60,081 nucleotides of DNA, from assembly GCA_019448385.1 (NCBI GenBank), contig JAGTXO010000078.1:50001-110081 (forward strand), written 5' to 3'. Below the pieces are notes generated by a model. The model did not search any database and was not told the DNA's origin. It was given only the letters and a program-made list of their open reading frames with translations. The translations under genes were made by a program, and so were the position numbers. This DNA comes from Diacronema lutheri (taxonomy: Eukaryota; Haptophyta; Pavlovophyceae; Pavlovales; Pavlovaceae). Shown here piece after piece: positions 22,834 through 60,081 of the stretch; the first letter of the stretch is position 1, and each line of letters begins with the position of its first letter.

Positions 22834-22885
<52 letters not shown>

Positions 22886-23586: not shown

Positions 23587-23657
<71 letters not shown>

Positions 23658-33207: not shown

Positions 33208-33360
33208 TCGGAGCATGGCGGCTCGACAGCATGGCGCCTCGACAGCATGGCGTCGTCCAGCGTCACGCCGCGTCGTGGTCCTGCCGCTCCTCCGTGGCGC
33301 ACGGATGGCGCTCCTCCGTGACGCAGCCGAACGACGCCGCGGCGTCACGGCCCGGGCGCA

Positions 33361-37917: not shown

Positions 37918-37966
<49 letters not shown>

Positions 37967-38425: not shown

Positions 38426-38495
38426 GGCGCCGAGCCGCTGCGGGTGCGGCGGGAGGCCCCGGGCGGGTGTGCTAATGCGGCTCGATGGCCGCCTG

Positions 38496-38497
<2 letters not shown>

Positions 38498-38529
<32 letters not shown>
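38498..38529. repeat. Poly-G tract, 32 bases
   Basis: This is C on the minus strand. It is followed there by ggcag, a possible acceptor. Confidence 0.85.
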
Positions 38530-38933
38530 CGCGTTGGGCCGCCCGCGGAAACGGAGGTGAGCGTGTGGGAGCGGCGCGCGTCGGCGCGCGCGGCTGGCGT
38601 GCAGCACGGATAAGTCTTGTGTGGACTTCGCGGGGCGGATCCCGGTGCAGGGATTGCCGACGTAGGCCGCGAGCGCGAGCAGGGCGGGGATGAAGACGGA
38701 TGATGGGGTTGGGGCCAAGGCCGCCGCACCCGCAGCTATCACGGTGGCAGCGACCGCCACGGTCAGTGCGAGGCTCGCGTGGCCGCTGCGCGGGCAGCTC
38801 GCCCGCCAGGTCCAGGAGGGCCGGCCTGCGGCCTCAGTGCCCAGCGTTGGGCATGTCAGCGTCTGCGTCTGCGGGCCCGCCACTGCGATGGCGCTTTGAG
38901 CCTGGCGCACCAAAACGCAATCGGTCCGCCGAT

Positions 38934-38934
<1 letters not shown>

Positions 38935-38968
<34 letters not shown>
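38935..38968. repeat. Poly-G tract, 34 bases
   Basis: This is C on the minus strand, immediately upstream of an exon-like minus-strand frame. Confidence 0.85.
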
Positions 38969-40332: not shown

Positions 40333-40352
40333 GGGGGGGGGGGGGGGGGGGG
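40333..40352. repeat. Poly-G tract, 20 bases
   Basis: This is C on the minus strand, flanked by ggtggtggtgg. It follows the exon-like frame 40538-40355. Confidence 0.85.
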
Positions 40353-40876
40353 TTTGGTGGTGGTGGCAACCAGGATCCGCCAGCGCGTGGTGGGCGCCGT
40401 CCAACTCCCAACCAGGATGCGCCCCGTTCTTCCCCGACACTCTCCGTCCAAACCCGCCGCCCAGCCTGCCGCCGCACCCGCCGCCAACGCCGCCGCGCAC
40501 CCATCCGCCGAGCTCACCGCGCGCGCGCTCGCGCTCACGCTGCGCGACGAGGCTGCGCAGGCCGGCGCGCGGCCGTGCAGAGCAGCGCAGGCCGGCGCGC
40601 GGCCGCGCGCGCGCGCTCACGTTGCGGCCGCGCAGCGAGCTTTCGCCGCGTCGCAGCCCCTCCGAGCAGCCACGATGCACGCCCCCGGAGGACGTTGGCC
40701 GCGCTCGGAGGCCGCGCTCGGGCGCGCAAAGAGAGGCGGCGCGGGCAAACGAGTAGGCTCGGCGCGCTGGCGGGTCCTGGTTGTGGGAGAGCGGGGCATT
40801 CTCCAGGGCATCATGTAAATTCTCCCAAGTATCATCCGGGCCGCCATCCGGACACTGACGTGCCCACAGTCTGCAG

Positions 40877-43800
40877 ATGGAGGACTCCGTGAAGGACGCT
40901 TTGCCCGGCGGGCGGGGCGGCTCGGACAGTTTCTCGCTGGCCCTCAGCACCATTCTGTCGCCGGGAGATACCCACCCCCACGTGGTCCCATCCACTTGCC
41001 TCATCGCCCTGCTGCGTTACGCGGATTTCGGCACGAGCAGGGTTAGGGTGGGCGACACGGGGTGCTCGCAGCATGCGCTCAAGGTGGCGCTGCGCAACCT
41101 GGGCAAAGCATGCGCGGATGCGGACCGGTTTGGGCAGGTGCTCGTGGTCGTGCTACCGTTCTGCCTCCGCGCGTCCAGCGGCCTCGCGCACTGGACGGCG
41201 GCGTACCTGCTCCTCGCGCCGCCCGCGCAGCGCGGCGCGCCGCCCGGCGCCGCGCTCGCCCTGCTCGCCGATTCGCGCACCTTGGGCAACGGCGAATCGG
41301 CGTACGCCACGGCGGCCGGCGTGCTCATCAAGAAGCTTGCGCAGCGCATCGGCAGAACAGCGCCGCCCATCGATGCCTTCAAGGCGCCCCCGCAGAGTGG
41401 GGCCGCGTGTTGCTTCGCCGCGGCAACAGTCGCGGCCGAGGTCGCGGCGAGCGCATCGACGCTCTACGGCCGCCGCGCGAATGTCCTTGTCGAGATCAAG
41501 AAGGCTTTGGACGCGCGCCTCGCGCGCCTCACGACGGCCGCGTACGAGGAGACCCGCGCGCGCACGCTCCGCGCCGCCATCGGCGCTCTGCTCGGCGACC
41601 GCGCCAGGCGCTTCGGCCCGTTCACCCGCGAGGCCGCGCGGCTCGCCGAGGCCGCGCGGCTCGCCGAGGCGTGCGATGCCAGTGTCGGCGGATCCGCGCC
41701 CGACGGGCTGCTGCAGGCCGTCGAGGCGGCGCTGCGCGCGCCCGACGACCGCATCGCACGCACGGCCGCGCTCGACGCGCTCACGGGCGCTGCAGGCCGC
41801 GCGCTGTCGACGGCGGCCAGGCCGCGCGGCGCGGCGGCGCCAAGGCCGCCGTCGCGAGCGCCACCGCCGCGTGCGCCGCAGCGGCGCGCCGCCTCGGCGT
41901 GGGGGCCCCGACCATTCAGCCTCCTCGGCGGGGGCGAGGGCGACGGGGACGATGGCGACGCCACCACCGCTGACAACGGGGAGGGCGCGGAGGACGGGGA
42001 CGACGACCTCGCGGGCGCGGCGGCTGCGGCGGTGGCGACGGGCACGGCGGCGACGAGCGCGGTGGCGGCGGGCGCGGCGCCAACCTCGCCGGCGGCGGCG
42101 GACGGCGGTGGCTCGGCGCCGCTCGAACGCCGCTGCGTCTACACTGCGCCTGATGAGGGCGACGCGGACGCGCGCGTGTACGACGCCAAGGACCCCGAGC
42201 AGCTAAAAGCGGGTAGGGCGCGGCTGCGGGCGAACAGCGGGCGCGCGCCCGCCGTGGTCGACACGCTTTTCGCGCACGCGACGGGCACGATCGTCACGCG
42301 GCAGCGCACGGAGGGCGTGACCGGCGCGGGCATGCACCACCTCGCCGCCCCGACGCAGGGCGCGGGGTACGGTACCGTCGTGCGGGCCGAGCTGGGCGAG
42401 CCCGGCTTCGCGGGGACGACACGGCACATGACGTCGGGCGTGGAGAACCAGCCGCGCGCGGTACGAGCGGCCGCGCGCGCGTACGCGCACGACGGCTGGG
42501 GCGGCGTGTACAATGCGCACGAGGACTTTGCCGCCTTCGAGGGCTTGCCGCGGCTCGCCGCGCCCGAATCGCTCGCGGCCATCGCCGGCGGGTCGGCGGA
42601 CGCGGTGTTCTGCTGGCGGTCCGGCCGGTCCGTCAACGGCGAGGTGACGACGGTTCACTTCAATGGCGACCGCGCCGCCGCCATCGACCACGCGCGGGCG
42701 CTGCGCGTCAGGCCCGATTGGCGCTCGCAGCCCAGGATCTACGAGGCGGCGTGCGGCGCGGAGGGCACGGTGCTGCTCGTGTGGGTCGTGCCCGACCGTC
42801 ACAAGAACCCGCGGCTGGACTGGGCGCCGATTCTCGTCGTGATCCACCTGCCCGCCGACCCCGACTGGCTCGCGCGCGCCACGCCGGCGATCGCGAAGGC
42901 GCGGCGCGAGGTCGAGGACGGACGCGCGCGCGCGGAGGCGCGCGGCGTGCCGCAGCACCTCGCCTACACGCTGAGCCCACGCTTCCGAGGCACCGCGCCG
43001 CGCGGCGCCGCGCGCGTGCCGCCGCGCCTCGGCGCGAGCGACGCGCGCGAGGCGCGCGCGCTCGCGGCGCTCGAGTCGGCGCTCATGTTCGCGCCGGCCT
43101 GGCGGCGCGCGGTGCGCGCGGCGAGCCGCGCCCCCGGCAGTGGCGCCGCGGCCGTCGAGCGCGCGCTCGCGCGCCTGCACAACGCGCCCGAGCCCGATGA
43201 CGAGAGCGCGCCCGAGTCGGCGCGCGTCGCGCCGCTCGCCGCCGCGCTCGAGCAGTCGGCGGGCTGGCCGGCGGGCACGGCGCGCATGGCGGCAAGCGTG
43301 ACCAAGGGCCCCGGCGTCGGAGATGGCGCAGGTGGCGACGAAGCGATCAAGGTGGAGGAAACGGCGAAGACGAGCGGCGACGGCTGCACCGGCACGCCTC
43401 CTCTGCGCCCGGCCGCGCGCGCGGCCGGCGCGGCGGACGACGGAGGGGCGGCGGTCGTGGCGGGCGTCGAGGGCGAGCGCGACGCACTCGCCAAGACGGG
43501 TGCCGGCGGCTGCGACGACGACGCTCGCGAGCCGCTGTCGGCCGGCAAGCCCGGCGCACTCGCCGCCGCGGCGACCGTCGGGGGTTTCGGCGAGCTCGTC
43601 GGCAGCCTATGCGCGTGGCTGGCGCACGGCGCGGCTGGCGGCGCCATCGCGGCCATCTCCCCCGGGACGGCCGCGCGCGGAGCAAACGGCACGCCGCAGC
43701 GCGCCGAGCCGCCGGCCGCCGGCGATCCCGTCGCTCCGCACGCGCGCGTCGCCGCTGCGGCGCCCTTGGCGGGCAGCGCGGCGGCGCCGTCGTCGGACGC

Positions 43801-46800
43801 GCGCGACGCGCAGCGCGGCGTCGCGGGATTCGACGCGGCCGCGCACGCGCACGCGCGCGACGGCAGGCGGGCGGCACGGCGGATGCGCGAGCAAGAGGGG
43901 GCGGTGCACAGGGCCTTCCGCATGTCCCTCTGGCGCGACGCGACGTTTGCCGAGTTCGTTGAGAAGCTGCGCCCCGACGGCGGCGCGCAGCTGCTCGCGC
44001 GCGAGCCCACGCGGCGCGCGGCGGCGGTGCTGTGCGAGCTCGCGCGCGGCCGCGACGGCGCGAGCGGCGCGGCCGGGCTGCTGCACGAGATGAGAGCCGC
44101 CGATGCGCGCGCGCGCGAGGCCGCCAAAGCGGCGGCGGAGGCAGCGCGGCCTGCGCACGGGACGCTGCGCATCGTGGCAACCGTGGCGCTGGGCGGTGCG
44201 GTCTTCGCCGGCGTGTCAGCGCTGGTCGTTGCTTGCGCGGCGCGCACGGCGACCGGTGCGCTCTTTGGGGCCCGCCGCCCGCGGGCGGCCGCGCGCGGAG
44301 CCGACGACGCGCTCGGCGCGCCGCAGCGCGCCGAGCCGCCGCCCGCCGACAAGGGCAAGCGCAGGCGCGCCAGAGCCAACGACGACCCCGTCGACGCGGC
44401 GCGCAAGGCCGTGGGCAAGGCGGAGGGCAACTGCCGCAAGGCAGCCCGCCGGCTGCACCTCGCTGCACTGGGCGAGGAGGAGGCGCAGCAGCGCGTGCTC
44501 GACGCCGAGGCGGCGGAGCAGCTGGCGCGCTCGCGCGAGCCGGCCGGCGGCTGGGTAGGCAGCGCGCGCGCGCGCGCGCGCGCGCGCCCCGCCGCGCGCG
44601 CGCCCGTCGATTGGCGTGCGCGCAGCGCAGAACGGCGCGCCAGCTCCGTCACCCGCGCGCCGCCGCGCCCGTGCCCCTCGCGCGCAGGGGCGCCCTGCGG
44701 ACCTGCGGCTGCAACAGGCGCACTTTGGCATGCGCGAAGATGCCGACGCGGATGTGCGCCGCGCGCACGAGGCGCTGCGCCGGGCGAGACAGGGTGTGGC
44801 GTGCGCCAAGGCCAGCGTGCGGCAGATGGAGGCGGCGTTGCTCAACGCGACGCGCTGCGCCACCGCGGTGCTCGCGCCGCGTGGCGTGCCGGAGGGTGAC
44901 GAGCAGGCCGCGGCGAGAGAGCAGGCGGCGCTGGACCGGGAGGCGCCGCCGGCCGCGCAACGCGTGGCGCCGACGGCGCGCTCGCCCTCGGAGCCGCCGT
45001 CCGAGTGGGGCCCGCCAGCGGTCGGCCGGCGCCCGACGCCGCGTGCACTGTCGCACGCCGCGGGGCGCGGGGACGACAACCCGTTTGCGCCGCTCGCAAC
45101 CGTCAGCGGCGATTGGTCGCCCACGCCGAGCTCGCGCTCGCCGTCCTCGCCGCCGCGGCAGCCGCCGTCCGACCGCCGCAGCGCGCAGCGTCGCAGCGCG
45201 CGCGCGCGGCCGCCGAGGCCGACCGTTTCGCCCGAGGACGCGCTCGCAGCCGAGCGCCAGGCGCGCGCGCTGTCGGAGCAGGCGGAGCAGAGGCGCGCCA
45301 AAAAGGCCGCCGCCAAGGCCGCGCGCCGCGCCGCGCGCGCCGCCGACAAGCGGACGGCGCGCGTCGTCCACGCGTGCGTAAGCGCCGCCTTGCGGCGCGT
45401 CTGCACGAGCGTCGCCACGGGCACGCCGCTCGCCGTGCTCCGCGAGCGCGCCGAGGGGCCGCGCGCGCCGAAGGCGGCGCCCGCGCCGCCACGCCGCGCA
45501 GCGGACGGCGGCCGCGCGCTCCGCCACGCGCGTACGGCGGCCGCCGCGGCGGCGGAGCGCGAGGCGGCGGTGGCGGCCGACGCCGACGAGCGGTTCGAGC
45601 GGCAGCCCTCCGCCGCCCGGTTCGACGGCGGCGATGGCGGCGGAGGCGGCCACGTCGAGGCGAGCGCGCGACCGCGCGCCGGCGAGGCCGGCGAGGCTGG
45701 CGCGCACGGCGCGCCTGGCGCAGCGGGGACCCCGGCGGCGTCGCTCGCGTCGCGCAGCCCGTGTGATGCGCGCCGCACGGCACGCCTCCCGCACGCACGC
45801 GCCGCAGCCACCTGCGCACGCAACGGCGGCTGGGGTGGCAACGTCGGCGGCGACGTGTGCGGCGATTGTTTCGGCGGCGGCGGCGTCCGTCGCGACGCCT
45901 GCGGCGGCGGCGACGCCACCTGCGGCTGCGGCGATGGCGGCGTCGGTGCTGGCGCTGGCGAGGCCCCTGCACACGGTGCGCCGGCGCGCGCGACGGCGTC
46001 GCGCTTGCTGCGCTTGCTCGGCGCGCCACGCGCCGTGCTCGGTGCGATGGCGCACGCCGCGGTCGTGTTGGCGCGCGGCGTGGCCGCAGCCGTCGCTGGC
46101 GTGCGCGCCGCCGCGCGCGCCGTGCGGCGCGCGCGCCGCCGAGCGCCTCGCGCGCGCCGCACGGCTGCGCGGCGGGCTCGCGGCCCGCCGATGCGCGACG
46201 TCGACGGCGCCCTGCGGCCCTCGCCGTCCTGGTTGCGCACACGCCTCGTCTGCGGCCGGCGCCTCGCGCCTCTGCGCCGCGCGGGCGCGCGCCCGCCGCC
46301 CGCACACGCCGCGCCGAGTTCCCGCGCGCGCGCTGCGCAACCCGACAGCGACGCGCCGGCGTGCGCGCCGCGGCGCTCGGCGCCTGTCGGTGCGCCGCCG
46401 CGCGCGCGTGGCCTACGCGCGGCGCGCGCACGGCGCTTCCTCGACGTCGCCGGCCGCGCGGCGCGGAGCGCGCGCCTCGGCGCGCGCATCACGCGCCAGC
46501 GCACGCCGGGTTCGCCATCGGAGCCCTGCACGGCCGAGAGCGGCGACGGCGCGGGCGCCGGCGGCGTCGGCGCGGCGGCGCCTGGCGCGGCGACGATGCG
46601 CGCCACCGGCGCGCGCGCAGCGCGCGCTGCGGCGGCGGCGGTCGGTGGCGCCTCGCGTCTCGCGCGCCGCGCGATGGCAAGCGCCGCCGCCGCTGCCACC
46701 TCCATCGCCGGCGCTGCCGCCTCGACCGTCGCCGCCGCCGCCGTTGCCATCGGCGCGGCCGTCACGTCACCGGCGTTCGCCGCGGCGCGCGGCATGGCGG

Positions 46801-49084
46801 CCGCATGCGTCGCTGCCTGCGCCCGCCCCACCGCCGCGCAGGCGGCCGCGTCGCGCGCGCTCGGCGCGCTCTTCGTGCTCGTCGACGCGGCCGACGCGGC
46901 GGGCGACAGCGACGCCGCGCTCGGCGCGCTCGCGGCCGCGGTCGACGCGACGGAGCTGCGCCCGCCGCCGGCCTTTTGGCGCGCGGGCCGCGCCGCGGCG
47001 TACGCACCGCGTCCGCCGCCCCTCGACTCGGCGCGGCCGCGCTACAACCGGCGCGCGCGCGCACCTAGCCCTCCCGTCGCGGCCGCGCGGCGCAATCTCG
47101 CGCGCGCGGTGCGCGAGCTCACGCGCGCCGCGCGCGCTGAGCGCGATCGCGCGCCGGCGCCGCGCGGCGCGCGCGGCGGCGTGCTCCACGCGCTGCGCGC
47201 GTCGCTCCCCGTGCACGCGCGTGCCGCGCTCGGCACGGACGCGGAGCTGCGCGCGGACATCGCCGCGTTCGCGCGCGCGCGCCGCGAGCTGCACAGCCTC
47301 ACCGACGCCGAGGTGGCGGCGCTCGCGCGCCCGGACGGGCCGCCGCTGCCCGTGCGGCTCGCGTGCACGGCGGTCGCGCGCGCGCGCGGCGTGACCGTGC
47401 TGCTCGACATCGTGCCGCGCGGCGGCGGCGCGCCCGAGCGGCTCGTGTGCCGCGCCCGTCGCCGCGGCGCCGCCACGCGCACGCCACGGCCGACAGCCGC
47501 CGTTATCGCGCGCGCGCCTTGCATAGCGGCGCGCGTTGGCCACACTGAGCCGGCGCGCGCGTGCGCGGGCGGATCGATCGGGGTCGCGCGCCTCCGTTCA
47601 GCGCGCCGCCGCTCTTGGCGTGGGGCGCGGCTCGACGTGCACACCCGCGAGCGGCTGGCCACACCGGTGCCAGGCCACGTCGTGGCCTGCGCCGCCGCCT
47701 CGGCCATCGGCGCGTGCGTCGCTCGCGCGCGGCTTGGGCTTGCACGGCTGGCGCGCGCGTGGCCCTGCGCCTCCGCTCCACTGGCCACTGCTGCTGTCGC
47801 CTTCGCGCCTGCCGCCGACGGTGTTTTCTGCGCCCCGCTGGGCGCTCCTGCATCCGCCTTCGCGCCTGCCGCCGACGGTGTTTTCCCCGCCGCACTAGCC
47901 GCTGCTGCATCCGCCTTCGCGCCTGCCGCCGATTTTCCCGCCCCACTAGTTGCTCCTGCACTCGCCTCCGCGCCAGCCACCGACGGCATTTTCCCCGCCC
48001 CACTAGTCGCTGCCGCTGTCGCGTCCGCGCCTGCCGCCGCGGGCGTGTCTTCCGCCCCACCAGCCATCGCCGCCGCGCCCGCCGCCAACGTGCGCACCGC
48101 CAACGTGCCCGTTGCCAACGAGGCTACCGCCACCGAACCAGCCGCCCTTGAGCTTCCCCTCCAACCCGCCAACTCGGCGCTGCTTGCGTGGGCGGGCGAC
48201 GCGGCTGCGCGCCGGCTGGCCTCCGCCGCCGCGAGCGCCGGCCTCCCGCAGGCAGAGGTGGAGCGCATCGCCAGCGGCGACATGCTCGCCTCAACCGTCG
48301 ACGCGTGCTGCGAGGTCGTGCTGCGCGTGCACGGGCAGGCCGGCGGCGGGCATGTCTGCCACGTGCCGCTCGCCGCGCAACCCGCGGTGTTCCAGGACGG
48401 CGCCGAGCGCGCCGCGCTGCTGCACCGCCTGCGCAGCGAGGCGACAACGCAGGCTGTCATCGGCGTGTGGAGCCCGTCGGACGAGCGCGGCGGCGCGGGC
48501 GGTGACGACGGCGCGCAGCTCGCCTCCGGCCATTTCACCGCGTTGCGCCTTGTGCGCGTCGCGCGCGCGGGCGAGCATCGCTACGACGCGGTGCTCGTCG
48601 ACACGCTCGCGTCGCCCTGCAGGCAGGCGCTCATGCTCGCCAAGGCGATAACTGCCACGCTGCACGCGGCGGGTCTCGACATTTCGCGCGTGCGCCGCGC
48701 GCTGCTGCTCAACGAGGCGGCGCAGCGTGGCGCGACGTGCGGCCTCGCGATAGTGGGCGCGCTCAACGACGCGCTCGCCGCGGCGGGCTGCTCGTCCGCG
48801 CCGCGCACGTTCAGCGTGGCGGACATGTACGCTGTCGGCGAGCGCCTCCGCGTCGCGCTGACCGGCGCGGCCAGCGATCGTGCGCCGGGCGGCGTCTGCG
48901 CGGTCACGAGCGCGGTGCGTGGCGGGGGCAGCCCCGATCGCGCCGAAACGCCGCCGCAGACGCGCGGCGCCAAGGCCGCCGCTGGCGTCACCGCCGCCGC
49001 CACCGCCGCCGCCGCCGCTGCTGCCGCCGCCGTGGCCGCGCCGCCACCGCCGCCACCGCCGCCGCCGGCCGGCGACGAGGACGA

Positions 49085-49132
<48 letters not shown>

Positions 49133-52100
49133 GCGCACGTTCTTGAAGCTCGCGCCCAGGGCGCGCGCGGCCGCCTCGGCGCGTGAGGCGTTGCGCGCCG
49201 CGTGTGCGCGCGCGGACGCGGCGGCGTCGTCACACGCGTCGGCGCCGCACGCGCCCGCCGGTGCGCGCCGCCGGCGGCGCGCGGGCGCAGGCGAGCTGGC
49301 GCTCGCGGCTGCGCGCGCGCTCGCCTCGACGGAGCACGGCGATTTGACGGACGACGCGCTCGAGGCCGCCATCGAGCAGGAGCTGGGCGACGAGCGCGGC
49401 CAACTGCTGCTGTGCACGCGGGGCGCAGCGGCGCAAAGGCCCGCGCTTTGCCGGCTCCTGAAGCACGCGTGCGCGTCGGCGCGCGCGGCAAAGCGCGCGC
49501 AATTCACGGTGTTCGTCGTGCGCGCGGCCACGCGCGGCGAGCGGGGGGGCGCCGCCGCGAGGCGCGTGGACTCGGTGGTCGAGCTGTCGTGCGCGCTGCA
49601 CGAGAAGGCGGGCGCGCTCGGCGGCCTCCAGAGCGTCTGTGTGCGTGGCTTCGCCCTCGAGCGCCGCCGGACACTCGACGCTGGCGCCGAGGCCGGCGCG
49701 TCCGCCATCGGCCAGGACGAGCAGGTCGAGGCAGAGGCGGGCGAGGCGTGCGTCGCCGGCGTGACGATGGCCAAGCAGCTGCGTCAGTTTGCCGAGCAAG
49801 CTGCCCGCGACGACGTGCTCTTCCACGTCGCCGTGTCCGAGGCCGACGCCCACGCCCGGCTGGCGCGCGTTGCGGGTGACGATGTCGGCGCGTACAGCGT
49901 CGTGCTCGCAGTCGCCGGGCTCGTCTGGCTGGCCAAGGCCGACGAGGTTACGCCGGCGGCCGCCCAGCCCGCCGCCGCGCCGCCCGCCGCCTCGCCTGCT
50001 GCCGCCACGTCCGCCGACGCCGAGCGCGACGCCTCGCCTTCCGACCGCCTGCGCGCGCTGACGCTCGCCGTGCGAGTCGCGCTCGCGCGCGGCGTGCTGC
50101 GCCACCTCCTCGCCGACGCGTCGCCGGGCGCGTCCGCGACCGCTGGCGGTAGTTGCGCGACGCCCGTCGAGGCGGCCGCGTCCGCCGCCGCGCCGCCCGC
50201 CACGGGCGTCGTAACGAGTGGCGTTGCGGCGGGCGCTGTGGCGGCCGCACCGGCTGCTGCGGGCGGGGCGACGGCGGGTGCATCGCCCATCACGCGGCCG
50301 GCGAAGCGCGCGCGGCGCACGCTCACCGCCGCTCCAGCCACCTCGGCCGTTGCGGCCGCTGGAGGCGCACGCGCTGGCGCACGCGGCGCGGCCGGCGCGC
50401 CTCGCGCGCGCGCCGCGCGCGCGCCGGCCGAGTACGTCTGGCTTGCCATCGCGCGCCGGATGCTGGCGGCGCGACACGCGGCGGCCGCGGGCGGCGACTT
50501 TGTCGCGTCGTGCGTCGCCGCGATGCAGGCCGAGTACGGCGACGGCTGTGCCGTCGTCGTCGGCGACGCGCCTGGTGACGCCTTGGTCGAGGCTGCGGCG
50601 GCGGCGCTGCTCGAGGGCAAGCACGCGGCGGTGAGCCTCGGCTGCGTCGACCGGCCGGCGGTGCTCGTCGTGCAGCGCGCCGTGGACGCGCCCACGTCGC
50701 GCGTGCACGGGTGGTGCGCGCACGCGGCGGGCGCCGCCGAGTTTGACGAGGGCGCCGCGCACGGCGTGTTCAACGCGATCGTCGAGCGCGCGTGGGCGCT
50801 GCGTCCGGACCCGGCCGACGGCAGCCCGCCGCCCACGCGCACGTGGGAGGTCGAGCGCATCGCTGACGACGCGCCCGACCAGGCGGGCGTGGCCGCGCTG
50901 CGCGTGCTCTACGCGCTCGTCGCGGCGCACGGCCGCTACCGCTCGGCCGCCGCGCTCTCTGGCGCGCTCGCGCAGCTGCACGCGCCCGACGCCGCCGGCG
51001 CGCGCGCGGAGGTCGTCGCGGCGGCGTGCGCGGTGCCGCCCGGCGCGCGGCCGGGCGCCGCGCCGGCGGCCGCGCGGGACGACGCGAGGGAGCGCGCATG
51101 GGAGGGCGCTCGGATCGCCGCGCTCGCCGTCGGCGCGGACGCTGCGCGCAGGCGTGTCGCGCCCGTGCGCGCGCTCGTCGACGCGCTCGGCACGCCACCG
51201 ACCTCGGCGATCACGGGCGGGCCGGCGGTGCGGCTCGCGGGCGCGGGCGACGGCGGCCACGGTGCACGGTGGGTGGGCGGGCAGGCGGCGACGCCCGCCG
51301 AGCAGCTGCCGAGGGAGCTGCTGCGCGCCTACCACGAGGCGGTGCTGTGCGTCACGCCCGGCAGCCTCCAGCTCGACTCGGCGGCGCTCGACGCGGTCAC
51401 GCGGCCGCGCGAAGACGACACGCTGGAAGGCCTCCTCGCGCGCGTCAGCTGGCAGTGCGGCGCGAGGGCGAGCACGTGCGCCATGCTCGCCATGTTTTCC
51501 GAGCAGGCGGGCACCGGCTCGCGCGTCGCGCTCAAGGCCCTCCGCACGAGCTCCGACCTGGCCGGGCTGACGGCGGCTGCGGTCGGGCAGCAGGCGCCGC
51601 AGACGCCGCCGCCGCCGCTGCTCGTGATGCTCGGCCGCTGCCCCAGCCCGCTCGTCGGCGGCGGCCTCTTCCCGCCCGACCGCGCGACGGGCGAGCCGGC
51701 GGTGCACGCGGCGACGTCCGAGCTCGCCGTCGAGCTGCTGCGCGACGCGCGCGCGCTGGCCGGCACGGACGGGCGGCTCGTCGTGCTGTGCCTCGAGGCG
51801 TCCAACCCGCTCTGGTTCTGCCCCAAGGTGCGCGAGCTCGAGCTGCCGCGGACGCGGTCGGACGGCGTGCGCGCGTCCGGCTGCACCTGCCCTGCGACGT
51901 GCAGCGATGCGCGCGGCGCGGCGGGTGGCGCTGCCCGCGGCGCATCGACGCGGCCGGCGGCGCGCGCGATCAACAAGGCGGTGCTCGACCACTTCGTCGC
52001 GCTTTTCGGCCGCGAGGGCTTCGCGACCTTTGAGTTTGCGGGCGGCGGCGAGGCGAGCTGGCTGTGCGACAGCGCGGCCGGCAAGACGACCGTCGCGGCG

Positions 52101-55100
52101 TGCGCGTCGCTCCCGCCGCGCATGGGCGATGGGCAGCTGGCCATCCGGCGGCACACGCTCGGCACGGGCGCCGACGCGCCGGCGCACGCCGTCGTCTCGC
52201 TCCGCGTCGCGCACGTGAGCCACGCCATCCGCCGCGCGGCGGACGACGGCGGCGCGCGCGCCGAGCGGATGGCGCGCGCCGCGCGCGCGTTTTGCGATGT
52301 GGCGGCCGCGCTGCGCGTCGACGCGATCCTGGCGGAGGTGCCCGAGGACCGCCCGACGGGCACGCCCTTCCTTGGCGGGCTGCTCGAGTTTTGGAACAAA
52401 CGCCACGGGAGCTCGACGGCGCCAGCCACGCTCGCGCTCGGAGACGTGCGCGAGGTGGCCAAGCGGACGGCCGACGCAGCGGCCGGCCGAGCGGACGAGG
52501 TCCCTGCGGCTGGCCGTCCGCAGGTCGCGGCGCGCGCGTGCGCTGGCGCGATTGGCGGCGGCGCGGGCGCGGCGGGCGCCTCGGACGCTGCGCCCCGTGC
52601 ACTGGCGGGCGCGTCGGGTGCGCGCACGGACGGCGGCCCTGCCGACGCACCGCGCCAGCTGGAGAGCCGCTACGGCGAGGCGAGCAAGCTCGACCTACCC
52701 CAAGATTCCACTACGGGCTGCGTCCTCGACGCTCGCGAGGCCCAGGACCGCGCGCGCGTGCCTGCTGCGCCCGACGGCACAGCGCTGCGCCGCGTGCTCG
52801 ACGCCGTCGGCGCGGGCGCGCCCGCGCAGCGCAGCCCGCGCTGGCACGACGAGCGATGGGAGGAGGTCACGGGCAGCAAGGTTGGCGACGTCGTGAACGA
52901 CAACGCCGGCGTCGCGCACGAGACGCTCACCGACGAGTACGTGCACCGGCGGCGGCGCGAGGTGCGGACCAAGGCGACGACCGCGGGCATCCTCGGCGAG
53001 GCCGTCGCGCTGCGCAAGCTGGCGGCCGCGTACGGCATCACCGTCGTGTGCAACCTGCCGATGGTGCGTGCGGACCCGCACGACAAGAGCGCGCCGTTCG
53101 CCTTCTCGCCGGACGGGCTCGCCATCCTCCCCGAAGACAACGAGCAGGTCCTCGTCGAGGTGAAGACGCTCACCAAGGCGGACGCCAAGGCGCACGAGGA
53201 CGGGCCGCCGCAGCCGCACCGCGATCAGCTGCAGCTCGGCATGCACGTCCTCGGCGTGCGCAAAGCGCTCTACGTGCAGTACCTCAGGCACGAGGACCGG
53301 ATCGTCGTGCACGTCGTGACGCGCGGCGTCGGCTGGCTTGCATTCGCGCAGCCGAGGGTGCAGGCCTTCTGGGCGCGCGTCGTCGAGCGGCGCGCGCGGC
53401 TCGAGCGCGCGCGCGCCGACCACCCGGCTGCGAGCCGGCGGCACCGGCGGCAGCAGACGCCGGCCGGGCCGCCGCTCGTGCTCGCGCTGGACGGGCGCAT
53501 CCCCGCCGCGCGCGCCGCCGCGCTGCACGCCGTCGCGCACGGCACCGCGAGCGCGGCGGCGGTGGCGGCGACGGCGGCGACGGGCGACGCGACGGCGTTG
53601 CAAGACGCGATCGCGGCGCTGCGCGCGCCCGTCGGCAATGCGGCGATCGACAGCGCAGCGCGTGCGGAGCGCGCGGCCGTCGAGCGGGCGATCGCGTACC
53701 TCGGGCAGCCGGCAGGCGACGCCGCCGCCCGCGGCACGGCCGAGGCAGCCGAGGAGGAGAGGACGGTCGACGCCGACATCTGCGCGTTGCTGCACCAGCT
53801 CGGCGCGAGCGTGGCGCACGTGCACGTCGAGGACGCGGATTGCGTCACGCGTGAGCACTGGGGCGAGGCGGTGCTCGCTGCAGCGGGCGACCCGTCGAGC
53901 GCCCCCGCCATTTCGAGCGTCATCGTCGCGCACATCGTGCGGCTCGCCGGCTTTGGCGTCGAGCTCCCGCAGTCGATTCGCGTCGCCCCCAGCACGGCCG
54001 ACTGGCACGAGGGCTGGCTCGACGTGCAGTGCGTGCTGCTGCGCACGCGCCGGCGCGGGCGGCGCGACGACGACTTTGTGGCCGTCGTCAGGCGCGGTGG
54101 GCGCTGGTTTGCGTGCGAGCCCGGCCGCGCGCGGCGGCTGCAGTGGCGGTCGGTCCTGCGCCGCGCGCGCGGCGGCGTCGACGGGACCGGCGAGGAGGCG
54201 TTCGCGGTCGTCTACGTGCGGCGCGGCGACGCGGCCGGCGACGCGGCTGGCGACGCGCAGGCCGAACGGGCGCGCGGCGGGCGCGCGCGCAGGCGCACGC
54301 GCGGCGGCACGCGCAAGCGCAAGCGCGGCGCCTCCGCCGGGCTCGAGGCGGCCGCGCCCGCCGGCGCGCCGGCTGCCGCGCCCGCCGGCGCGCCGGCGGG
54401 CGCTGCTCACCGCCCGCCCGCCATGCGCGCGACGGTCGCCGCGCGCACCACGCGCTCTGTGACCGACGCGCGGCACTCGGCGCCTGCCGCCACGGTTGCA
54501 CCTGTCTTCGACTGGCGCGCCGGCCGCCCGCCCCCCGCCGCTCGAGCCCGCCACCCGCGGCCGCGTGGGCGCGCGCCACCGGGCAAGGCCTGGGACAGCG
54601 TCTCGGGTGCGTGGGCGGACAAGCCGACTGGTGCTGCCGTCGCCGGCGCGCCGCCGCCGCTGCCGCCCGCCGCCGCGCCGCCGCCCACCGCCGCGCCGCC
54701 GCCCGCCGCCGCGCCGCCGCCCGCCGTCGCGCCGCCGCCCGCCGCCGCGCCGCCGCCGCCGCCGCCACCGGCGGCGCTCAACCGCTGGCAGCACGTCGGC
54801 GCGGGCGGCAGCGCGGCAGGCCGGCGGCTCGCGGCCATCGCACGGCGGCAGCGCGGCGTGCGCGCGCCGCCGCCCGCCGCGCGCTTCCTCGCTACGCTGC
54901 CGCCACCGCCACGCGACGGCCTCGCGCGCACGAGCAAGCAGGCGCGCGCGAGGCGCAACGCGGACGGACGGCCGGCGCACGCGCGCGCGGCCAACGCGCG
55001 CGCCTTCTACCGCGGCGTGGAGCTCGGCGTGCACGCGACGCGCGCCATCGTCGACGCGCGCCACGCCGACCTGCCGCAGGCCGTCTTCGTGGCGGAGGCG

Positions 55101-58100
55101 CGGGCGATCGTCGCGCGCTCCGCCGGCGGCGGCGCGCTGCTCGCGCCGGACGACGTGCGCGACCTGTGCGACGCGCAGACGGACGCCGATCGCGCTGCGA
55201 TCTGGGCGTCGGTGGGCGCGCACGAGGCGACGCGCATCTTCGCGCTCGTCACGCGCAACGCGAGCTTGGCGGGCGCGGCGCTGCTCGTGCTGCACACGCC
55301 GGCGGGCGCGCCGGCGCGCGCGCTCGGGCTCGTGGCGACGCGCTCGCGCGCGCCGTCGACGGGCGCGCCGCGCGACGCGCACAGGGCGCTGGTGCAGCGG
55401 TTGGACGTGCTGATGGACGCGATCGCCGCGGCGCGAGGCGCGTCGCCGCTCGAGCTCGAGCTCGCGCTCGCGCCCGAGCCGCAGAGCGCGTGCAACGCGC
55501 GTGCGGCCGCGCTGCTCTGCCTGCAGGCCGTCGCGGACGCGAGCGGCCGTCCCGCCGCTGAGGACGCGCTGGCCGCGCTCGACGACGCGCGCGGCATCGA
55601 CCGGCACTGCCACGCCGTCCGGCAGCAGATCGAGGCGAAGCTCGCGTGGCGGCGCACCGACGGCGCCGTCGGCGTTGACGGCGCCGACGGCGCGCCCGCG
55701 CTCGCGCCTGCCGCCGCACCGCCGGCGTGCGCGCCGGCGCACGCTGCCGGCGAGGCGGCGGTCGACCAGGCGATCATCACGCGGGTGCGCGACGCGCTGC
55801 GCGCGTGGGCGACGACTGACACCGCGCCCAGCGCGGCGGTGCTCGACGACGCCTGCGCCGCGTACACGGCGCGCGCACGCGCGCGCAAGGACGCGCGCAC
55901 GGCGCTGGGCCCGACGCGCGCGGCCGAGCTGCTCGCCGCGGCCGCGCGCGGCGGAGCCGACGGGGCGGATGCCGCGCGCGCGCTGCTCGGCGGCACGCCG
56001 CGCCTGCTCGTCGTGCTCCTCTGCGTGCCCGTCGCCGCGCCGTCCGGCGAGCCGCCGCGCCCGGTCGGGCTGCTCGTCGCCGACCGGCCGACGGACGACT
56101 CGCGCCCGGCCGCGCTCGTGCGCTACGACTTTGCGCCGCTCGACGCGGACGTGGCCGTCGCGGTCGGCGCGCATGCCGTCGCGCTGGCCAGTGCGATCTG
56201 GCCGCTGCTCGCGGCCGAGGGGGAGCCGCGGCCATCGCCCGTCGTGCGCTCGCAGCCGCGCGGCGGCGACGATGGCGCGCGTGCGCTCGCAACGTTCGCG
56301 TGCCTCGACGCGCTGATGACCGCCAGCGTCGGCGCGCTCGGCCTCGCGGGCGGCGCGGGCATGCTGCCCGCGCTGGTCGCGCGAGGCGCCGCGGCCGCCC
56401 AGCGCGAGCGGCAGCTGCGCGCGGCCACCGAGAGGCTGGGCGGCACGGTCGCTGGGTGGCCGGACACGGGCGCGAGCGCGGCGGGCGCGAGCGTCGACGA
56501 GGAGGCGCGCACGTACGAGGTCGAGGCGGTCGTCGACGAGCGCCGCAAGGCGGGCAAGAGGGTGACGTTCCAGTTCCGGATCAGGTGGCGGGGCTACGAC
56601 GAGAGCGCCGACACGTGGGAGCCTGAGGCCAACGTGAGCAGCGACCTCGTCGCCCAGTTCCGCAAGACGCGCGACGAGCAGAAGCGGCGCGCGGGCGGAT
56701 CGGGCAGCGGCAGCGGCGGCGCGGGCGCGGCGTCGGCATTGGCGTCGGCGCCGCTTCGCGCGCACGGCGTGTCGGGCGCCGCGGGCAAGCGCGCCGTGGC
56801 GGGTGCCGCCGCGAGCGCGCGCGACGCCGCGGGCGCGCGCGCGCCGAGCGTTCCCCGCGCGCGCGGCGTCGAGCGCGCGCGCGTGGACGAGCCCGCTGCG
56901 CCGAGCGCGCGCGCCGCCGGCGGCGCGACGGCGCGCACGCGCGGCAGCGTGCTCCCGGGCTTCGTGGTCAAGCGCTCGACGCTCAACGCGGGGCCGCAGG
57001 CGGTGACGGCGCAGCCCGGTGCGCGGAAGGAGCTGCGGCGCATCGCGGCGGCCGTGCACAGGCTCACGACACAGGCGTACCGCGTCATCAACAAGGTGGT
57101 GCGCGACGAGGCTGCGGTGGCGAGCGCGCAGGCCGTCGGCGCGGCGTCGGGCGGCCCGTCGACCAGCGTGCACACGTCGACCACGATGGACAAGGGAACC
57201 GTCCTTGCGATCTTCTCGGCCATCGGCTGGCACAAGGACGAGAGCACGTACGGTGCAGCGCCCCGAGGCAAGCCCGCCGAGCAAGCCGCCGCGCAGACCA
57301 AGGCGGCGACGGCGCGCGCCGTCGGCGAGATGGCCGAGGGCGTCCAGCCCGTCTGCGCGGTGGGCCTCACGAGCATCCTCAAGGAGGAGGCGACGCAGGT
57401 GTCCACCGCGTGCCTGATGCACCCATCGCGCGTCGTGAACGGGCTGCTCCGCGACGTCGTCCGCGCGGCAGTCGAGCGCGACGAGGCGCTCGTCGCGCTG
57501 CCCGAGATGCAGCGAAACGCGCGCGTGCGCGAGCTGTGCGAGCGGCTGCTGCGCGGCGACGTGGAGGGCGCGCGCGTCGGCTGCCCCGCCGCGCTCGACC
57601 GCCACCTGCCCGACATGGTCCTCCACGAGGTCGACTACAAGTGCGCGCCCACGGATAGGTGGAACTACGACCGGCACACGACGCGCTACTTCCTCGTGCA
57701 GATCCGCAACCTGCAGCACGTGGCCGAGGGGCAGGCGCTGCTCTGCCGGCTCGCGCGCCTGTACACGCAGCTCACCGACCGGCCGCCGCGGTATAATGTG
57801 GCGCCACTGCGCACGCACAATGTGCGCGCGAGGCGCGGCTGCCGCTGCCGCCGCCGAGCGCCCAAGCGCGCGCGCCGCCGCCGTGCGCGCCGCCCCGCGG
57901 CCAGGTTGGTCACGCGCCCGCGCGCTCGCATGCCGCGCGCTGCGCGCAGGTGCCGCGCAACGTGCGCCTCACCGCGAACGCCATCTGGGAGACGCTCCCG
58001 GACGACGAGCGCAAGGAGCTGCGCGCGCGGCTCAAGGCGCTGGACCTGCGCGACCACGATGGCGAGCCGATCAAATGGACAGGCACAAACGGCAACACCC

Positions 58101-59674
58101 CGCCGATGTCGGACGTGCGTGTCAGGTACGCGGTCTTTGCGACGCGCTTCGACATCTCCAACCGCGTCTTCGACTACGCCGGGCGCGAGCGGCCGCCGGC
58201 CGATCTGCCGTGGCACGCGCGGCGCTCGTGGGTTGGCCTCGCGCCGCTGCCGCGCGTGCCGCTTCCGGGCCGGCAGCCCGTCAAGTCGGTGGTGACAGAT
58301 GGCGTCGCCGTGCACGCCGTCGGGACCGTCCTCGTGCCGAAGGCGCAGGCGCCGGCCGGCGGCTCGGGCGTCCTGCACCGCTGGCGCCGGCCGGACGGGC
58401 GCATCGCCGTCGCGCTCGGCTCCGAGCTGCGGCGGGCGATCGACGTCGAGGCGGCGGTCGTCGTCGCGGCCGACCCGAACATGGGCAACATCACCACCTA
58501 CTCTGCGCACGTCGGGCGGGCGGCCGTCTGGCGGCAGTTCACGCAGCGCGCGCGCGCGCGCGCCGCGGGCTTTGCGCGCGAGACGGCCAAGACCAACGCG
58601 GCGCGGCGGCGCGTGCGCAAGGACGGGCGCGGCGGTGAGTTCAGCGTGGAGGCGGACGAGGCGCGGCTTGGCGAGGCGCACAGCGCCAAGGTGCTCGGCG
58701 AGGGCGAGTTCCACGCCTTCCACCGCGAGAGCGCGCGGGTGCGCGAGCGCGCCGCCGAGCACGTGTACGACGCGCCGGCGCGCCGGAAGGAGCGCTGGCG
58801 GCGCGACAGCGGCGGGCGGTCCAACGCGGCGCGCGTCGCCGAGGCGCTCATCGCGGCGCACTGCGTCGACGGCGTGACGCGCGACCGGCTGCTCGTGTGC
58901 GTGGGCAAGTGGCTGCGCGACCACAAGGGCGCGCAGCCCAAGGGCGCGCCGCCCGCCTTCCAGGTGGGGCTGCTGCGCGAGCTGCGGCGGCGCGGCGTCG
59001 CGGCCGTCTTCGTGCCCGAGCCGTACACGTCGATGCACTGCTCGATGCCGCGGCTCGCCAAGGGCGGCAGGCTGCAGCGCTGCGGCGCGGAGCTCGCGCA
59101 GAACCCGCGCCTGCCCGTGGCAAAGGGCGGCACGCGCACGGTGCACGCGCTCGTCATCTGCCCGGCGTGCAACGGCGGCAAGAAGCCCGTGCACCGCGAC
59201 TACAACGCCGCGCGCAACATCTTCTACGACGTGCACGACATGGCGGCGCACGCGGCCGGGCGCGACACCACGTCGACGCCTGAGCGCTTTGCCCTCGTGC
59301 TCGCCTGGTGGGCGCGCGGCGAGGTGTGGGAGCGTGAGGAGCGCATGGTGCACGGCGAGGGCGACGACTGCGACGACGAGTGCGACGGCGACGACGAGGG
59401 CGACGACGAGGGCGACGACGACGACGACGACGACGGCAGCGGCGACGGCGGCGGCGGCGAGGGCGACGGCGACGGCGACGGCGACGGAGGCGGCGGCGGC
59501 GGCGACGACGATGACGGCGGGGGAGGCGGCGGCGGCGACGGCGGTGGCGACGACGGCGGCGGGCGCGGCGACGGTGGCGGCGGCGGCTCTCGCGCCCGCA
59601 CCCCCGCCCGCGGAGCTGCCAGCGCCAGTGCCGGCGGCGGCAGCGCGCGCGGGCCGAAGCGCGGCCGGCGTTGA
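40877..59674 (+). CDS. Giant polyprotein: Ulp1-like proteases, YqaJ-like nuclease, chromodomain, Fanzor nuclease
   Basis: Exons 40877-44554, 44688-57797 and 57950-59674 join in phase 0 at GT..AG introns of 133 and 152 bp, giving about 6,170 residues. The central exon is open for 13.1 kb. Order: Ulp1-like module (about 95-180), variable region, coiled coil across the first splice (to about 1300), Ala/Pro repeats, second Ulp1-like module (about 2500-2580), degenerate copies (about 3000-3400 and 4700-5100), YqaJ-like PD-(D/E)xK nuclease (about 3938-4108), chromodomain (about 5169-5225), Fanzor nuclease (about 5330-6060), an Asp/Gly-rich tail and terminal KRGRR. The start Met at 40877 opens the first exon. 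A chain cut by its own proteases would release a chromatin-tethered, RNA-guided-type nuclease. This is inference. Internal starts or unseen introns are possible. Confidence 0.7.
41137..41440 (+). other. Ulp1/C48-like cysteine protease module 1 (in polyprotein)
   Basis: The linear order of the Ulp1 catalytic set is visible: His105-Trp106 in LAHWTAAYLLL, Asp132 in LLADS, Gln173 and Cys178/179 in APPQSGAACCFAAA. Such proteases cut SUMO-like or viral polyprotein sites. Activity here is inferred from residue order and spacing only. Confidence 0.55.
47810..48060 (+). repeat. Degenerate 60-70-bp coding repeats (FAPAADGVF-type), about 5 copies
   Basis: The protein reads FAPAADGVF-x-A-P/A-L five times with drift (ASAPATDGIFPAPL and so on) just before protease module 2. 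This is a flexible linker produced by tandem duplication. Confidence 0.75.
48180..48870 (+). other. Ulp1/C48-like cysteine protease module 2 (in polyprotein)
   Basis: His in SGHFTALRLVRV (about residue 2508), Asp in AVLVDTLASP, and Gln..Cys in NEAAQRGATCGLAIVGAL (about 2571) keep the Ulp1 order and the CG pair at the nucleophile. This module is closer to the family consensus than module 1. Confidence 0.6.
52820..53330 (+). other. YqaJ-like PD-(D/E)xK nuclease domain (in polyprotein)
   Basis: QRSPRWHDERWEEVTGSKVG is the typical opening. It is followed by ILGEAVALRKLAAAYG, SPDGLAI..NEQVLVEVKTLT with the D..ExK metal-binding core, and HRDQLQLGMHVLGVRKALYV with the helical Q-x-Q motif. YqaJ/lambda-exonuclease-type domains occur in viruses and eukaryotic transposons. 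The active-site set appears complete. Confidence 0.8.
56513..56685 (+). other. Chromodomain (in polyprotein)
   Basis: YEVEAVVDERRKAGKRVTF, then FRIRWRGYDESADTWEPEAN, is a canonical chromodomain with the aromatic Tyr, Trp and the TWEP box. Chromodomains bind methylated histone tails and direct some transposon integrases to heterochromatin. Here it directly precedes the Fanzor part. Confidence 0.9.
57000..59674 (+). other. Fanzor (eukaryotic TnpB-like) RuvC nuclease, C-terminal part of polyprotein
   Basis: The N-terminal helical part (57000-57797) runs into exon 57950-59674. RuvC-I Asp lies in VAADPNMGN (about 5771), RuvC-II Glu in FVPEPYTS (about 5953) and RuvC-III Asp in HRDYNAARNIF (about 6013). 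A treble-Cys ribbon sits between II and III: C at 59039, 59081, 59159 and 59168, with CPAC as the last pair. The first CxxC is changed to CSMP, and RCGAEL supplies another Cys. Fanzors are RNA-guided DNA endonucleases of eukaryotic mobile elements. All three acidic residues are present, so activity is plausible. The end is a GAC-repeat acidic tail and KRGRR. Confidence 0.85.
59345..59580 (+). repeat. Asp/Gly-coding GAC/GGC trinucleotide-type repeat
   Basis: About 80 codons of D and G with few others form the acidic tail of the Fanzor portion. It is prone to length change. Confidence 0.85.
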
Positions 59675-60081
59675 CGCACGGCCGAGCCGCGCAGCGGTCG
59701 ACGCTTTGCGGGCTCTGCCCAGGTCGCGCGCGGCTGGCGACGCGTACCGCATTCGGCACGCCCGTGCACGCCGCCACCCGTGGCCGAGCGCGCCGCACCA
59801 GCCGGCCCGCTCCAACCGCCGTGCGGATCACGGACGCTCGCTACGGCTCGTCGGCGCGCGTCACCTGCGCCGGCGGCCACGGCGCCGTCTGCTCCGGCCT
59901 CGTCGCGAGCAGCCCGACCGCTGCTCGCCGCCCGCACGCCGCCGCAGCAACGCTGCGCGTCGTGCTCCCCCGCTCGCCAAACGCGAAGAGCTCCCTCACA
60001 AGGACGTCCTTCCGAATGGCCCGCGCTGCACTCGGGGCGCTCGATCGTGCCCCTGATCGGATTTGGCTTGACCATCTATAA
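59675..60081. other. Region downstream of the Fanzor polyprotein to window end
   Basis: 407 bp. The plus strand is open to the end, reading TAVRITDARYGSSARVTCAG. The minus strand is open from ATG 60073-60075 (MVKPNPIRGTIERPE). Neither is recognised. TnpB/Fanzor guide RNAs usually come from sequence overlapping or following the nuclease 3' end, so a guide RNA and element end would be expected here or just outside. No fold was identified by eye. Confidence 0.35.

Follow-up and report, generated by a model that had tools for sequence, protein, structure and literature searches.

A giant high-copy transposon of Diacronema lutheri with a predicted YqaJ-chromodomain-Fanzor gene

The window holds one member of a high-copy transposon family

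We analyzed a stretch of 60,081 nucleotides of the haptophyte Diacronema lutheri (contig JAGTXO010000078.1 of assembly GCA_019448385.1, positions 50,001 to 110,081 of the forward strand), referred to here in its full length as the window. Its right part had been read, in a preliminary description made from the sequence, as one gene of three exons (40877..59674) that joins two Ulp1-like protease modules, a YqaJ-like nuclease, a chromodomain and a C-terminal Fanzor nuclease in a chain of about 6,170 residues. Coding frames do fill this span, but it covers only the right two thirds of a larger unit: the window holds one internally rearranged 29-kb member of a transposon family, which ends at the end of the contig (Table 1). 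The left part of this element carries a PIF1-like helicase and a USP-type deubiquitinase, and its right part is taken up by the giant gene. The most likely order of the core of this gene is an Ulp1-like module, a YqaJ nuclease, an HP1-like chromodomain and a C-terminal Fanzor1, with longer forms that would bear an extra Ulp1-like module in a front exon.

The search for other copies in the same genome, which had been proposed as a way to define the ends of the element, gave sharp and shared ends at 31,021 and 60,080. In an alignment of fetched copies the left breakpoint is common to copies C9, C70 and C1, and the right breakpoint is the same wherever a fetched copy continues into a right flank; the contig of the window stops one base past it. 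Two further copies begin to match inside the element, C69 only at window 38,813, where 7.6 kb of unrelated sequence precede the match, and C30 only at window 37,923, where its contig ends. Across the genome, a 26-mer just inside the left end has 239 matches with at most 2 mismatches, and a 24-mer at the right end (ending in C) has 215 matches with at most 1 mismatch, the 100 listed ones being all exact; each pattern has 0 matches when reversed. Left ends read TATATA and then C or G in 181 exact matches, and right ends read CTATA and then C in nearly all copies. An A instead of this final C was found in 4 exact matches, two of them at contig ends, and these may be among the 215. No long terminal inverted repeat was seen at the element ends, and the TATA at both ends would fit either a 4-bp duplication with a TATAC target or a fixed terminus.

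When the first 100 listed left ends were compared with the listed right ends, 62 could be paired, with sizes of ∼31.0 kb (25 copies), ∼29.2 kb (8 copies), ∼26.3 kb (6 copies), ∼21.5 kb (12 copies) and other values (11 copies). These 62 copies total 1.75 Mb, which is 4.0% of the 43,492,796-base, 103-contig assembly. The element is a transposon of ∼200 copies with discrete size classes and fixed ends, and the ∼31-kb form, the commonest, is presumably the complete one. Exon 3 of the giant gene, which encodes the Fanzor, is present in at least 70 copies of at least 98% identity (70 scored of 487 candidates). The published genome of D. lutheri NIVA-4/92 is reported, in part of its description, to have 73.25% GC and 22.9% repeats (PMC8379373), and the main text of that paper contains no word beginning with “transpos”.

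Several contig ends coincide with ends of the element. Among 10 contig starts inspected, six (C1, C5, C6, C10, C12 and C92) end at most 2 bases from a right end, C26 and C29 lie within ∼20 bases of one, and C71 and C90 are not there; the contig of the window (C57) also ends at a right end, and C32 begins at a left end. We considered an association with telomeres and rejected it because C32 begins at a left end, which makes breaks of the assembly at a repeat the simpler reading. The assembly thus seems to be broken by this transposon at several contig ends.

Table 1. Features of the transposon copy, in window coordinates (dN/dS, ratio of non-synonymous to synonymous substitution; ORF, open reading frame)
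Feature	Coordinates	Strand	Basis or remark
Whole transposon copy	31021..60080	+	29,060 bp, ∼29-kb size class
Left terminus, (C)TATATACGGCGCGGTCCGG	31021..31046	+	26-mer just inside matched genome-wide
Small ORF, part with coding-like codon usage (window 32221-32520)	32058..32606	-	Similar signal in 31-kb copy
Inverted segment relative to 31-kb copy C1	32886..33381	.	∼1.1 kb of C1 absent beside it here
PIF1-like helicase pieces, two frames	33781..34424	+	Pfam PIF1 E 9.4e-19 and 3.2e-25
USP-type deubiquitinase (UCH), 3' part	36614..37516	+	Pfam UCH E 4.3e-5
Exon 1, 1,226 aa, frame 2	40877..44554	+	Codon-level scans; missing from copy C70
Probable Ulp1-like module 1: His (41189), Asp (41270), Gln (41393), Cys (41408 or 41411)	41189..41413	+	Motif positions
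Putative intron 1 (GT..AG) with (GC)n repeat	44555..44687	+	2 bp longer in C48 and C75
Exon 2, 4,377 aa, stop-free, 13.1 kb	44688..57818	+	Splice donor uncertain within ∼57,796-57,820
Stretch open but without coding codon signal	47341..48360	+	Possible gene boundary or low-complexity linker
Probable Ulp1-like module 2: His 48531, Asp 48600, Cys 48738	48180..48869	+	Motif; dN/dS 0.41 versus C70 copy
YqaJ / RecE / lambda-exonuclease-like nuclease, EVK (53157), QLQLG (53226)	52842..53249	+	Pfam, PHROG, NCBIfam
Chromodomain, closest solved chains CDYL, CDY1, CBX5, HP1	56514..56666	+	Pfam E 1.3e-13; PDB sequence search
Putative intron 2	57819..57949	+	Frame switch; ungapped against copy C48
Exon 3 with RuvC half of Fanzor1	57950..59674	+	Pfam TNB, motifs, dN/dS ∼0.38
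3' non-coding end, place expected of Fanzor guide RNA	59675..60080	+	RNA fold excess, modest
Right terminus GGATTTGGCTTGACCATCTATA	60059..60080	+	Next base C in nearly all copies

A giant gene with a stop-free central exon

The three frames exist as the preliminary description had stated them. From stop to stop they span 1,346 codons (40859-44899), 4,578 codons (44559-58295) and 625 codons (57797-59674), and exons 40877-44554, 44688-57818 and 57950-59671, when joined, translate to 6,177 residues. The open run of exon 2 can be compared with 200 simulations by a first-order Markov model of its sequence, whose longest run without a stop was 1,172 codons. Read in its two other forward frames, the exon contains 31 and 21 stops. 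Because exon 2 has 0 stops where the model expects 30.8, chance is excluded as the origin of its open frame.

Coding signal was scanned by GC content at the codon positions and by codon usage trained on parts of the same exons (leave-one-out values of 0.41 to 0.54 bits per codon). Both scans place the signal in frame 2 at 40.9 to 44.5 kb, in frame 0 at 44.7 to 57.8 kb and in frame 2 at 57.9 to 59.6 kb, and these two frame switches would fit the two introns proposed. At the border of exons 2 and 3, frame 0 gives way to frame 2 as the frame with coding signal within ∼150 nt, with a gap of ∼131 nt. Within exon 2 it is patchy at 44.9 to 46.7 kb and dips at 54.3 to 54.8 kb, in a stretch rich in proline and alanine.

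We scored 150 copies of the YqaJ region for the length of their frame, which is at least 4,000 codons in 105, between 4,480 and 4,530 codons in 66, below 3,300 codons in 30 and above 5,000 codons in 7. In copies C48 and C75, a (GC)n tract that is longer by 2 bp puts exons 1 and 2 into one frame of 5,746 and 5,733 codons, respectively. As these two copies read through in frame, we do not take intron 1 as certain, but we keep it as likely, because 66 of the 150 copies have unfused frames of 4,480 to 4,530 codons and only 7 of the 150 exceed 5,000 codons. The longest frame (6,136 codons, in copy C11) is uninformative on intron 1, as the fetched piece starts at window 44,861, to the right of the junction.

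The N-terminal part of the gene differs between size classes. In the 21.5-kb class one member was read, copy C70 (21.4 kb). It lacks window 37.9 to 48.16 kb, and where exon 1 and the first 3.5 kb of exon 2 (as far as 48,160) would lie, it has a 2.4-kb in-frame alternative with a different N terminus. This alternative N terminus (L023:6592-9999) shows (REQ)n-like repeats and hydrophobic stretches. Because the N terminus of C70 has been exchanged, we treat 6,177 residues as an upper estimate. The length of about 6,170 residues given earlier agrees with the joined exons, but this copy and a lapse in the coding signal (see below) mean that it is not fixed. The safe statement is that of a predicted shared core of ∼3,900 residues (module 2, YqaJ, chromodomain and Fanzor) with exchangeable N termini, and of 6,177 residues at most in the copy studied here. 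The giant protein may be expressed as a single chain.

YqaJ nuclease, chromodomain and Fanzor

The YqaJ-like nuclease and the chromodomain, both of which had been proposed earlier, were recovered by profile searches and lie in one uninterrupted exon, with the Fanzor frame next after the ∼131-nt gap. The nuclease is found as RecE-like by PHROGs (PHROG 434, E 2.1e-16), exactly at the cut-off by Pfam (22.0 bits, E 2.2e-4) and under the model cut-off by NCBIfam (lambda-exonuclease family TIGR03033, E 1.3e-6); a PDB sequence search with the region returned nothing relevant. Its EVK and QLQLG are what we take to be the E-x-K and Q motifs of the YqaJ/lambda-exonuclease family. In the chromodomain, the three-aromatic cage is presumably made up of the Y of YEVE and the W and Y of RWRGY.

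Exon 3 matches the Pfam model TNB above its cut-off (29.0 bits versus 26.3, E 1.2e-6) and the NCBIfam TnpB model with an E value of 0.015. Searched alone against the PDB it retrieved Cas12f1 only at E 0.3, and a two-sequence profile retrieved Cas12f1 at E 1.3e-4 and Fanzor1 of Guillardia theta at E 0.8. Its RuvC half aligns with a second Fanzor of this genome (L040) at z 15. The RuvC acids are an Asp at 58472, a Glu at 59018 and an Asp at 59198, with the TNB region at 58982-59221, and ∼560 aa lie between the chromodomain and the first of these. In part of the description of Fanzor1 proteins, the pattern is given as D-X(125,275)-[TS][TS]XX-[C4 zinc finger]-X(5,50)-RD (PMC3627910). Exon 3 agrees with it, with D175 to T360 (184 residues between), TSMHC, a last Cys at 407 and RD at 416-417, and a loose regular expression matched as well. 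Further marks of Fanzor1, taken from part of another source, are a RuvC Glu at an alternative position, DPG at the first RuvC Asp and TDG in the WED domain (PMC10711439). Here the Glu stands in E-P-Y-T-S just before the zinc region, its position being judged by the alignment with L040, and TDG occurs in VVTDGVAV at 58295; the first RuvC Asp motif reads D-P-N-M-G, with DP present and G displaced by two. The exon also contains RDYNAARN.

The second Fanzor family was fetched from three places in the genome (L039, L040 and L041, on contigs C9, C89 and C85), and the 21 top-scoring TNB places (at least 39.5 bits) of 150 scored are likely members of it. The open frame of L040 extends over at least 1,146 codons and includes a long Gly-rich stretch ahead of the Fanzor. 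This family resembles the exon 3 Fanzor in TDG, DPG/DP, E.YTS and RD(F/Y)NAARN, at ∼30% identity, but its TNB score is higher (43.9 versus 31.3 bits), and the single L040 ORF that was scanned has neither YqaJ nor chromodomain.

Guide RNAs of Fanzor and TnpB are described, in part of PMC10432273, as coming from the right end of the element, with a target that lies beside a short motif, CATA in the case of SpuFz1. By analogy, a candidate guide-RNA gene would be the 406 nt that follow the Fanzor stop, and TATA next to the left end could serve as the target-adjacent motif. For the last 181 nt, folding is better than in 199 of 200 shuffled versions (z -2.69), and three 150-nt windows in the 3' end gave z -1.06, -2.26 and -1.53, a surplus of RNA structure that is modest. 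Rfam gave no match at the gathering threshold in the 3' end.

Ulp1-like modules and selection between copies

Two Ulp1-like protease modules are probable in the giant frame. The order H-D-Q-C occurs twice, compared with 0.0035 occurrences per shuffled chain and 0 of 2000 shuffles with two, although this control flatters the pattern, which was fixed after the modules had been seen. In a three-row alignment of the modules the His, Gln and Cys columns agree and the Asp is offset. Further degenerate module copies possibly lie in exon 2, judged by eye only.

For the exons, selection was measured on copies C9, C16, C30, C69 and C70, restricted to alignments no shorter than 400 bp with at least 93% identity. 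Ulp1-like module 2 and exon 3 are under purifying selection. Between the window and C70, module 2 has a dN/dS of 0.41 (30 synonymous and 35 non-synonymous changes; Fisher p 6e-4), and its His, Asp, Gln and Cys are unchanged. Exon 3 shows 21 non-synonymous and 15 synonymous changes over the five copies, which is 0.38 of the neutral expectation (p 0.005). The ratio is 0.79 for the PIF1 piece. In the alignment of exon 2 there are 44 indels whose lengths are not multiples of 3; most of them fall within a GCC tract around 49.0 kb or form pairs a few bases apart, and these have the appearance of alignment artefacts.

Helicase, deubiquitinase and other frames in the left part of the element

In the left part, copy C1 is longer than the window copy by ∼1.1 kb and 0.3 kb, and a 0.5-kb segment is inverted between the two. 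The PIF1 region of the window copy is rearranged relative to the 31-kb copy, and a longer N-terminal part of the helicase is found in L042. The deubiquitinase match reaches 23.7 bits in the window, against a cut-off of 23.9, and has an E value of 4.3e-8 in C1; the Cys box and the His box of the USP family lie in one frame in C1 and C70, and the Cys box lies in another frame in the window copy. The small ORF on the reverse strand has no Pfam match. Over the whole giant frame and most of the longer left-side ORFs, Pfam recognized no transposase, integrase, reverse transcriptase, tyrosine recombinase, Rep or capsid protein, and no packaging ATPase, polymerase B or DDE domain either.

Interpretation and alternatives

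We read the element as a high-copy DNA transposon of D. lutheri that carries PIF1, USP and a giant YqaJ-chromodomain-Fanzor gene and that would act by RNA-guided cutting and break repair, and we put the probability of this reading at roughly 0.5. The element itself, its ends and copy number, its genes, the open frames and the intactness of the catalytic motifs are seen in the sequence, whereas the mode of action is inferred. In such a mechanism, the chromodomain would hold the giant protein on chromatin with methylated histones, in line with the earlier suggestion that it may steer the nuclease to chromatin. The Fanzor would then cut TATA-adjacent sites, guided by an RNA that starts in the 3' end of the element and runs into the flank. 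PIF1 and the YqaJ exonuclease could process the break, for which a copy of the element would serve as repair template, so that the element is preserved or spread. The Ulp1-like and USP enzymes, in turn, might strip the SUMO or ubiquitin marks of host silencing or repair, or might cleave the giant protein.

Several results weigh against this reading or parts of it. No transposase was recognized in the ORFs scanned. Splicing and the single chain are predicted from the sequence, and the coding signal is absent at 47.4 to 48.3 kb; the earlier proposal of one frame in three exons fits the frame switches at both putative introns, but the signal along it is not unbroken. In the Fanzor, the N-terminal half gave z 1.3 and -0.2 against the N terminus of L040, and the WED/REC half is unrecognized. 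The earlier assignment accordingly holds for TNB, the three RuvC acids and TDG, and not for the N-terminal half, which is without demonstrable homology. The first zinc pair is not CXXC (C364, next Cys 378), and the second is a canonical CPAC. Ten control windows for RNA folding (8 in the non-coding left part and 2 coding) gave z -1.92 to 1.50, with -1.92 in a non-coding one, and the left terminus gave -1.39. The hidden Markov model (HMM) Pfam C48 (PF02902) fails to recover either Ulp1-like module, none of its 9 genome matches (8 candidates) is on the contig of the window, and modules 1 and 2 give no significant profile match to each other. The two modules described earlier are thus supported by the residue order. 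Neither the maturation of a polyprotein by these proteases nor the steering of the nuclease by the chromodomain, both suggested earlier, is supported by the data. Exon 2 is neutral among the five copies (155 non-synonymous and 51 synonymous changes and 1 stop; ratio 1.06), exon 1 has a ratio of 1.78 (37 non-synonymous and 7 synonymous changes) and the USP is neutral, with dN/dS of 1.19 and 1.07. On account of these values, we rejected the divergence between copies as proof of coding for exons 1 and 2. Recent copies that drift freely would explain most of the neutral ratios, and such ratios lend function no support. Finally, four scans of viral contigs found no homolog outside this genome, although their patterns came from one or two sequences and are weak evidence of absence.

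The giant frame may also be divided into more than one gene. An alternative, which we consider somewhat less likely than not, separates an upstream gene (exon 1 to ∼47.4 kb, with module 1) from a core gene that starts at ∼48.2 to 48.3 kb and encodes module 2, YqaJ, chromodomain and Fanzor in ∼3,900 residues. The lapse in coding signal lies between the two, a Met stands at 48,282, where the signal resumes, and the segment that is missing from C70 breaks off just before module 2. Frame 0 nevertheless stays open through the lapse, which resembles the dip in the proline/alanine-rich stretch, and the different 2.4 kb upstream in C70 are open in the same frame, which suggests a core gene that reaches further upstream in that copy; moreover, C48 and C75 hold exons 1 and 2 in a single frame. 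It is unlikely, in our view, that the Fanzor is a separate gene with a promoter of its own inside the large frame and that the chromodomain protein ends near 58 kb. The unspliced frame of exon 2 does stay open to 58,295, the frame with exon 3 has 1,015 codons in many copies, and exon 3 has its own Met ∼50 codons in; other Fanzors are described as separate and much shorter proteins (PMC3627910, PMC10432273). In the window copy, however, there is no Met in the exon 3 frame between the upstream stop and 57,950, and given the handover of signal within ∼150 nt, the promoter would have to sit inside the coding sequence of exon 2. The function of the Ulp1-like modules is a separate matter. Because the element carries a deubiquitinase, action on host ubiquitin or SUMO is as good a reading as polyprotein maturation, and deconjugation of host proteins, which would blunt silencing or DNA-repair signalling, is plausible at somewhat less than even odds. 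Ubiquitin-like proteins are the substrates of the Ulp1 and USP families, and the USP of C1 and C70 has both of its boxes in one frame; still, the modules have diverged too far to be recovered by the C48 HMM, their substrate is not readable from the sequence and the USP is without purifying selection.

As to the type of element, Helitrons have a Rep/HUH protein plus a helicase and TC...CTRR ends, and Cryptons have a tyrosine recombinase and a short direct repeat at their ends. Capture of a Fanzor by an otherwise Helitron-like or Crypton-like transposon would agree with the PIF1-type helicase, the lack of long terminal inverted repeats and the short TATA common to both ends. We consider it improbable all the same: in the ORFs scanned, Pfam found no Helitron N-terminal or Rep/HUH domain, no tyrosine recombinase and no DDE domain, and the ends are not TC...CTRR, so that the likeness to Helitrons consists of the helicase, the ends without inverted repeats and the capacity to carry Fanzor1, and that to Cryptons of TATA at both ends. 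Both groups are named as carriers of Fanzor1 in part of PMC10711439. An integrated virus, related to giant viruses or polintons, is very improbable, given the ∼200 copies with size classes and fixed ends and the Pfam scans, which showed no capsid, packaging ATPase, polymerase B or integrase in the ORFs covered. It is true that PIF1, YqaJ and Ulp1-like proteases are commonly found in such viruses, and giant-virus papers, one of them on a haptophyte virus, reportedly contain the word YqaJ (PMC12085832, PMC6792449, PMC10962738). The boldest reading is that of a new class of giant transposon without a known transposase, in which the chromatin-tethered chain would make RNA-guided, TATA-adjacent cuts with its Fanzor and recombine the ends by its lambda-exonuclease-type nuclease, aided by the PIF1 helicase, while the ubiquitin- and SUMO-type proteases disarm host defence; we regard this as a long way from probable.

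Relation to known systems

Fanzor-bearing transposons are already known, and what looks new here is the architecture and the size of the element. Among the matches listed in searches of the openly accessible literature, with most subscription papers outside, no description of this domain set was found, as the preliminary description had supposed. According to part of the text on SPu-1 (Bao & Jurka 2013, PMC3627910), Fanzor1-bearing transposons share with our element their mobility, a Fanzor1-type RuvC protein with the order D-x(125-275)-[TS][TS]xx-C...-RD and multiple near-identical copies. SPu-1 differs in having ∼2.1 kb, a 633-aa Fanzor and 33-bp inverted repeats, compared with ∼31 kb and no long inverted repeats here, and the Fanzor here is apparently the C terminus of a protein of ∼3,900 to 6,200 residues with YqaJ and a chromodomain. 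Chromoviruses, as described in part of PMC3605345, likewise have a chromodomain fused to the element's own DNA-acting enzyme, which is their integrase; the enzyme here would be a Fanzor-type nuclease, and no integrase or reverse transcriptase was recognized. The phage RecE/lambda exonucleases (PHROG 434, TIGR03033) have in common with the giant protein the YqaJ domain with EVK and QxQ motifs. Here, by contrast, the domain lies inside a giant protein predicted for a eukaryotic transposon, and no RecT/Beta annealing protein was recognized.

The element makes the unresolved question of why transposons carry Fanzors testable in a sequenced and culturable alga. It has more than 200 termini that are nearly identical, its copies are recent, no transposase was recognized in it, and its Fanzor is apparently joined to an exonuclease and to a reader of chromatin. 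Natural variants of the domain set are provided by the 31-kb and 21.5-kb classes. The fusion, if real, would be a natural chromatin-targeted RNA-guided nuclease, and if the transposase-free reading is true, it would mean RNA-guided, recombination-based transposition in a eukaryote.

Other repeats in the window

The sequence to the left of the element at 27684-29869 is itself a repeat, because a sequence of 88 to 95% identity to it also flanks another copy of the element (C16, L001 and L027). Less than 400 bp from the left end, at 30127-30641, lies a 189-bp unit repeated 2.7 times at 98%. Pure runs of G or C, 30 to 68 bases long, occur at 397-445, 22836-22883, 23587-23654, 37923-37952, 38498-38529 and 38935-38968; the three from 37923 onward fall within the element, and the run at 37923 is where the contig of copy C30 ends. 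A 40-bp satellite of ∼242 copies (97% matches) at 6634-16323 leaves several frames open for thousands of codons and is a source of false giant ORFs.

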